From Aromatoleum diolicum (GTDB lineage Bacteria > Pseudomonadota > Gammaproteobacteria > Burkholderiales > Rhodocyclaceae): a stretch of DNA of 55,762 nucleotides. Of this stretch, positions 34,878-35,226 are shown piece by piece. The stretch spans positions 1 to 55,762 of the forward strand of contig NZ_WTVQ01000031.1 of NCBI RefSeq assembly GCF_012910955.1. Direction: 5' to 3'. Position 1 is the stretch's first letter. Each line of letters begins with the position of its first letter. The notes beneath the pieces are model-generated. The model saw only the letters and a program-made list of their open reading frames with translations, ran no database searches and was not told the origin of the DNA. Made by a program: the position numbers and the translations under genes.

Positions 34878-34901
34878 AAGGGGCGCTTCGGCGCCCCTTT
34901 T
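34878..34901 (+). terminator. Rho-independent terminator of the ace operon
   Basis: AAGGGGCGC-TTCG-GCGCCCCTT: a 9-bp stem with a stable TTCG tetraloop, ending in TTTT, 20 bases after the lpdA stop. Confidence 0.93.
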
Positions 34902-34979: not shown

Positions 34980-35014
34980 TTGCTCGCCGCGCCGAGTACT
35001 GTATATAATTACAG
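34980..35014 (+). promoter_or_regulatory. LexA (SOS) box overlapping a promoter -10
   Basis: CTGTATATAATTACAG at 34999-35014 is a perfect CTGT-N8-ACAG LexA operator with an AT-rich core. The same bases include a consensus -10, TATAAT (35004-35009), with TTGCTC (34980-34985) 18 bases upstream as -35. LexA bound here would cover the RNA polymerase site, the usual arrangement of SOS genes. The only downstream frame close by is the 57-codon ORF at 35053. The operator consensus is established for gamma- and betaproteobacterial LexA; repression here is inferred. Confidence 0.8.
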
Positions 35015-35052
35015 CACTCGACAAACTCGGCCCCGCAAGAAGGGCCATTCCG

Positions 35053-35226
35053 ATGGAGACCGACATGGAACTGTGGATCAATCGACTGCTGATGGGTTGT
35101 GGTGGCGCCTCCGGCCTCATGCTCGGCACCGGTCGCGTTGTCGAGGCCTCGACGCTCGCCGCAGCGACGATCTTCGCCGTGTGGTTGATGCGCATGCAGG
35201 CGCACGCGACCTTCGACGAGGGATAA
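35053..35226 (+). CDS. Putative SOS-regulated small membrane protein (57 aa)
   Basis: A 57-codon frame that I do not recognise. Most codons end in G or C, as in neighbouring genes. The product is short and hydrophobic: a glycine-rich stretch (residues 13-27, MGCGGASGLMLGTGR) and a likely transmembrane helix (about 33-48, STLAAATIFAVWLMRM), with an acidic end FDEG. Two starts are possible: ATG 35053 (AAGGG eight bases upstream) or ATG 35065 (GGAG six bases upstream). It begins about 37 bases after the predicted start of the LexA-controlled promoter. A hairpin (CCGCC/GGCGG, 35238-35254) follows. SOS-induced membrane micropeptides such as TisB are a functional precedent, not a homologue. Confidence 0.6.
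   Translation: METDMELWINRLLMGCGGASGLMLGTGRVVEASTLAAATIFAVWLMRMQAHATFDEG

Follow-up and report, generated by a model that had tools for sequence, protein, structure and literature searches.

A putative SOS-controlled membrane miniprotein gene in Aromatoleum diolicum and its relatives

The stretch of DNA analysed here (the window, 55,762 nucleotides of contig NZ_WTVQ01000031.1 from Aromatoleum diolicum) contains a LexA operator between the ace operon and a gene for a diguanylate cyclase, followed by a small open reading frame (ORF). Aromatoleum species are degraders of aromatic compounds. The locus raises the question of whether the small ORF encodes a protein and is the target of the operator, or whether the operator serves the cyclase gene further downstream. 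A first-pass annotation of the window, made from the sequence alone, had proposed a 57-residue membrane micropeptide under SOS control. Our analysis leads us to regard it as likely that the locus is a LexA-repressed single-gene unit encoding a 53-residue, probably inner-membrane miniprotein; this assessment covers a LexA-controlled membrane miniprotein and excludes any step in cell division. LexA binding, induction, membrane insertion, a partner, and an effect on the cell are all matters that we infer.

A LexA operator kept together with a small gene

The perfect LexA operator noticed in the first-pass annotation, CTGTATATAATTACAG, was confirmed at positions 34999-35014 of the forward strand, where it is the sole exact copy of CTGT-N8-ACAG in the whole window. 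Sites with at most one mismatch to this pattern occur in the window at chance level (10 found versus 12.6 expected), and GC-rich DNA readily leaves frames open. Both points would suit the explanation that an operator-like sequence stands by chance next to a non-coding frame, against which the homologues of the small gene could be set.

Homologues were searched for with the protein alone, ignoring the operator. The 57-residue query found matches in 12 of 61 genomes, all of them among the 17 genomes of the genus (its own counted), while the remaining 44 genomes gave no match. Where these genus loci have named records, five belong to Aromatoleum and one to an Azoarcus sp. A profile built from the 12 sequences matched 59 of 395 genomes of the bacterial family, which we take to be the Rhodocyclaceae, and a profile built from 42 homologues matched 77 of the 395, of which 75 were kept and two were removed as other proteins. 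The 75 homologue genomes span 10 genera (g1, g51, g58, g60, g61, g72, g73, g78, g81, and g91). Excluded from the counts were G078 and G381, whose reading frames showed them to be false, G231, G392, and the second match in G369 (a 335-residue frame with a stop). A sample of 399 genomes of the order, searched with two profiles, yielded two family members only, all else being weak or partial matches that fell in other proteins, and a sample of 274 genomes of the class yielded the own genome only. The miniprotein family thus appears to be confined to one bacterial family in the genomes sampled here.

Within 140 bp upstream of the match, an exact CTGT-N8-ACAG was present in 59 of the 75 homologues, a copy with one mismatch in 12, and one with more mismatches in four, whereas 1004 equal-length control windows elsewhere in the same loci contained 0 exact and 12 one-mismatch copies. 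Because the exact box precedes 59/75 homologues as opposed to 0/1004 controls, the operator upstream of the miniprotein gene is more than chance. It is exact upstream of all 12 genus loci, and in each of the 10 genera a box deviating by no more than one mismatch was seen; among 18 homologues outside the profile, the boxes were exact in 15 and one-mismatch in three. When 18 of the 21 profile matches from outside the family were checked, 17 upstream stretches had no box at one mismatch or fewer, and one locus at a contig edge had no exact box. Five genus members lack the ORF, and in these the 700 bp past lpdA, a gene that flanks most of the genus loci, were free of any box at one mismatch or fewer. 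The same stretch is likewise box-free in G011, where the gene and its operator reside on another contig. Joint conservation of the LexA box and the ORF, which the first-pass annotation had itself put forward as its test, therefore holds: the two are shared over 10 genera and are jointly absent after lpdA in 5/5 ORF-less genus members. Taken from the operator position and this joint conservation, LexA repression of the small gene is very likely.

The small frame is under purifying selection. The ratio of nonsynonymous to synonymous substitution rates (dN/dS, NG86) had a median of 0.16 over 55 pairs (non-zero values 0.034-0.518) formed by the window and 10 genus relatives across 47 codons, with L012 excluded from the set. 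Of the 47 columns for each codon position, 20 varied at the first, 13 at the second, and 39 at the third. Together with the difference between homologues and control windows, the selection on the frame reduces the chance explanation to a negligible probability.

The frame of the proposed 57-residue ORF, 35053-35226 on the forward strand, exists, but its start was placed 12 bases too far upstream. Of the 11 genus relatives, 10 have ACG and one has CCG in place of the ATG at 35053, which was rejected as the start codon for this lack of conservation. An in-frame ATG at 35065 is kept in 12/12 genus loci and lies six bases past the ribosome binding site GGAG (35055-35058, forward strand), which is also kept in 12/12. 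Since this ATG and the GGAG are kept throughout while the ATG at 35053 is not, the protein has 53 residues. We therefore place the small gene for the putative SOS-controlled membrane miniprotein (MELWINRLLMGCGG..., 53 residues and a stop) at 35065-35226 on the forward strand.

Variant operators were observed in g78 at loci L061, L068, L074, L075, and L078; in some of them, a change in one half is matched by a change in the other (GTGTATAAAATTACAC, GTGAATAAAATTACAC, CTGAATAAAATAACAG). The altered yet symmetric GTGTATAAAATTACAC is that of L074, and loci L053 and L077 of g78 keep exact boxes. The matched changes hint at a shifted LexA recognition. In g73, the small gene of loci L133, L135, L142, and L146 is preceded by two box-like elements in tandem; one of them is exact, and the other is a partial copy (CTGTATAAATTTGCAC or CTGTATAAATTGTCAC).

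Neighbourhood and transcription unit

The first-pass annotation offered as an alternative that LexA controls the diguanylate cyclase. On that view, the operator would serve the cyclase gene, 253 bp further on, and the small ORF would be a mere leader. A cyclase does follow in the same direction in 11/12 genus loci, and the small gene is flanked by both lpdA and the cyclase in 10/12; L011 has only the cyclase at the near flank, with lpdA also present further upstream (L115), and L012 has neither at close range. Flanks of up to 5 kb were examined for 25 of the 75 homologues, and neighbours were counted by tblastn since gene calling had picked some antisense frames. In 11 of these 25 loci, the small gene is followed, about 0.3-4.4 kb downstream and in the same direction, by a cyclase of the window type. 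In the other 14, the ORF and its operator are kept without a cyclase in reach. The gene creA (PF05981) is found just downstream on the opposite strand in 6/25 loci, in three of them between the small gene and the cyclase; lpdA is present in one of the 25, and 11/25 loci have neither lpdA, creA, nor the cyclase. Because it is present in only 11/25 loci, the cyclase is a frequent but not a constant neighbour, and it is not an operon partner. The loci without a cyclase, the convergent creA that intervenes in three others, and the purifying selection on the small ORF all argue against control of the cyclase, which we consider very improbable. The diguanylate cyclase YfiN has been reported to inhibit division (PMC4992967); nothing was found linking it to the small gene.

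The -10 element TATAAT at 35004-35009 (forward strand, read from the sequence) sits inside the operator, as the first-pass annotation had described. Of the proposed promoter, this element was borne out; the -35-like element TTGCTC at 34980-34985 on the same strand, also read from the sequence and separated from TATAAT by a spacer of 18 bp, matches TTGACA at only 3/6 bases. Most of the 12 genus loci retain CTTGC at this place. At the -10 position, 10 of the 11 genus relatives have TATACT, and L012 has TAGAAT. A promoter scan of the locus called none here. The spacing to the -10 element suggests a transcription start that would leave a presumed leader of about 49 nt (35016-35064, forward strand). 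Upstream of this unit, and outside its boundary, the preceding ace operon ends in a terminator-like site at 34878-34899 on the forward strand.

A structured leader RNA was considered and rejected: two-sided changes occurred at 1/10 predicted pairs, the covariation term was unfavourable, and the predicted folding was no better than that of shuffled sequences (L006 and L012 were excluded from the leader alignment). No Rfam match was obtained at the gathering score. A small hairpin at 35029-35046 (GGCCC...GGGCC) is kept in part across the genus, with no more than weak covariation. The sequence flanking the gene is little conserved in the alignment of the 12 genus loci.

Features of the miniprotein

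Among 42 aligned homologues, M1, G13, and G17 (residue numbers follow the window protein) are found in 42/42, G21 is glycine in 39 and alanine in three, G23 is glycine in 41, and R43 is arginine in 41. In a wider set of 29 members including g58, g61, and g73, M1, G13, G17, and R43 are all invariant. The G-x3-G-x3-G spacing is that of a glycine zipper. The invariant glycine repeat would suit tight packing, whether between copies of the protein or against a membrane partner.

Two hydrophobic stretches, at about residues 8-22 and 28-42, are separated by a glycine-rich turn, in which residue 24 is mostly polar. Basic residues are common ahead of the first stretch and past the second. The positive-inside rule relates basic flanks to the cytoplasmic side of the membrane, and because of these flanks the sequence suggests that both termini of the miniprotein are in the cytoplasm. 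The AlphaFold2 model, based on seven sequences, comprises a helix at residues 3-18, a turn, and a helix at residues 23-52, so that the protein is probably a short helical hairpin with a glycine-rich turn. The membrane helix predicted in the first-pass annotation is plausible but weak in the window member, whose best 19-residue Kyte-Doolittle mean is 1.44; membrane insertion, although likely, is thus only weakly predicted.

Searches of Pfam, NCBIfam, and PHROGs gave no convincing match for the miniprotein family. The window protein gave no match at E 1 in Pfam or NCBIfam. With the 42 members, seven weak Pfam family matches were obtained at E 0.1, each from one or three members; we took these scattered matches (best E 0.0049) as chance. 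In PHROGs, the best match of the 42 members had E 0.024, and the four families matched were each represented by a single member. One of six members scanned resembled subunit K of the V-type ATP synthase (20 bits versus a cut-off of 101, E 5.8e-4), a resemblance attributed to composition. Sequence matches in the PDB, the best of them to a reaction centre L chain (E 0.011), were attributed to chance. No tblastn match at E 0.1 was found for the window protein against plasmids or for one relative against phages; with the PHROGs and Pfam matches as weak as they are, membership among phage or mobile-element proteins was not found.

Several observations weigh against a real damage-response membrane protein. 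The hydropathy of the window member is modest, the confidence of the model is low (predicted local distance difference test, pLDDT, 67.6; predicted template modelling score, pTM, 0.36), and a fold search of the model against the PDB gave no match. Open frames are cheap in this DNA: among the genus sequences, one antisense frame is open in 11/11, and the +2 frame is open in 10/11. The distribution is patchy, with no copy detected in 5/17 genus and 320/395 family genomes, and four g78 homologues have boxes with at least two mismatches. The genomes are related, and this kinship inflates the counts of homologues and boxes, which therefore overstate the number of independent events. Moreover, no sequence feature points specifically to the divisome. 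Against this background, we still consider that the gene probably encodes a real damage-response membrane protein. With it, the SOS-controlled membrane miniproteins gain a family that no library matches convincingly, and it illustrates how an operator conserved next to a tiny ORF across genomes exposes genes that family libraries miss.

Candidate actions and the SOS system of the genome

The genome encodes LexA (TIGR00498, E 2.8e-67, above the cut-off), with the operator CTGTATTTTTGAACAG just upstream of lexA and the gene for ImuA behind it. SulA is a division inhibitor encoded by an SOS-controlled stand-alone gene. The miniprotein has no sequence relation to SulA: the SulA domain (PF03846) is not among the seven Pfam families matched by the 42 members at E 0.1, and the window protein is without a match at E 1. 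In the own genome, the SulA family is matched only by ImuA, encoded next to lexA, and therefore no dedicated SulA is seen there. SulA-domain matches were found in 22 of 35 chosen genomes; as the single one checked, that of the own genome, is ImuA, this distribution says little about division inhibitors.

How could the miniprotein act? In an undamaged cell, LexA would occupy the operator and cover the -10 element. Cleavage of LexA would free the promoter, and the short leader with its good ribosome site would allow rapid synthesis of the miniprotein, which would insert as two short helices with the glycine-rich turn between them and both ends in the cytoplasm. It might then bind a membrane protein of the divisome and pause septation, as SidA, YneA, and SosA do. 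We favour this action by analogy, although tentatively.

The analogy rests on published systems. SidA of Caulobacter crescentus is an SOS-induced small inner-membrane protein of 29 residues that acts on FtsW, and DidA from the same organism is a damage-induced, SOS-independent small inner-membrane protein (PMC4211646). The miniprotein resembles SidA as a small, putative membrane protein with predicted SOS-type control, and differs from the published description of SidA by its 53 residues, two predicted helices, and glycine repeat. YneA, SosA, ChiZ, and DivS are SOS-controlled small membrane division inhibitors of Gram-positive bacteria with little mutual similarity (PMC6851548, PMC13396833). 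The members of this group are reported to have one transmembrane domain and genes that commonly adjoin lexA, and SosA, of 77 residues, blocks division (PMC6851548). The miniprotein is likewise a small predicted membrane protein under a LexA operator; unlike the members of this group, it has two predicted short helices, and lexA is located on another contig (C44, the small gene being on C71).

Two further proteins of this kind, TisB (29 residues) and DinQ (27 residues) of Escherichia coli, are LexA-controlled hydrophobic membrane peptides that are held back by the antisense RNAs IstR-1 and AgrB, respectively, and that depolarise or modulate the membrane (PMC8309996, PMC3567139). The miniprotein shares with them its small size, hydrophobicity, putative membrane location, and LexA operator. 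It could be a membrane depolariser, acting like TisB (PMC8309996): its glycine-rich hairpins would assemble into a leak or pore, the proton-motive force would fall, and growth would be slowed during DNA damage. The glycine repeat would suit self-assembly, and one member has a weak match to Phage_holin_2_4 (E 0.086, Pfam). However, TisB and DinQ have a single helix and an antisense RNA, whereas the miniprotein has two predicted helices, and neither an antitoxin RNA nor an inhibitory leader is evident from the leader fold, from Rfam, or from the genus flanks, a distant trans-acting RNA not having been searched for. Nor is any type I toxin family among the seven weak Pfam matches of the 42 members (E 0.1). 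We judge a depolariser to be unlikely.

Another membrane role is conceivable, such as modulating a transporter, a protease, or a respiratory complex, or nucleoid compaction, which DinQ is reported to affect (PMC3567139). The sequence leaves the function unfixed, and the conserved glycines and arginine fit many helix-packing partners. Since neither the gene neighbourhood nor the family matches suggest any specific partner, this role also seems rather doubtful, if less so than depolarisation. With no sign of the antisense RNA control that is held over TisB and DinQ, we therefore favour a pause in division over a depolariser or other role.

It is possible, though far from certain, that the miniprotein belongs to an undescribed SOS checkpoint family, in which a glycine-zipper hairpin arrests division or growth, unlike the known single-helix inhibitors, in bacteria whose only SulA-domain protein, in the one genome checked, is ImuA. 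If true, the glycine-zipper checkpoint would be an SOS membrane checkpoint invented independently. In the literature searched, whose coverage of subscription journals was incomplete, no description of the small gene was recognised, which is weak evidence of novelty, and within the same coverage, division arrest during DNA repair in the Aromatoleum group was not described. The small gene family is a directly testable candidate for division arrest under DNA damage in this group.

Further boxes were observed in the own genome. The box CTGTATATAGTTACAG at G000:C64:62904-62919 (L014:1501-1516) lies directly ahead of an ORF of about 85 residues that has two CxxC pairs (MTARFICPHCHAPV...RICPLCDEAVFF) and no Pfam match above the cut-off; this ORF is possibly a second uncharacterised SOS small gene. 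The box CTGTATTTATGAACAG at G000:C44:94694-94709 (L051:1501-1516), which precedes a gene of the YaiI/YqxD family by about 120 bp, is a candidate SOS site.
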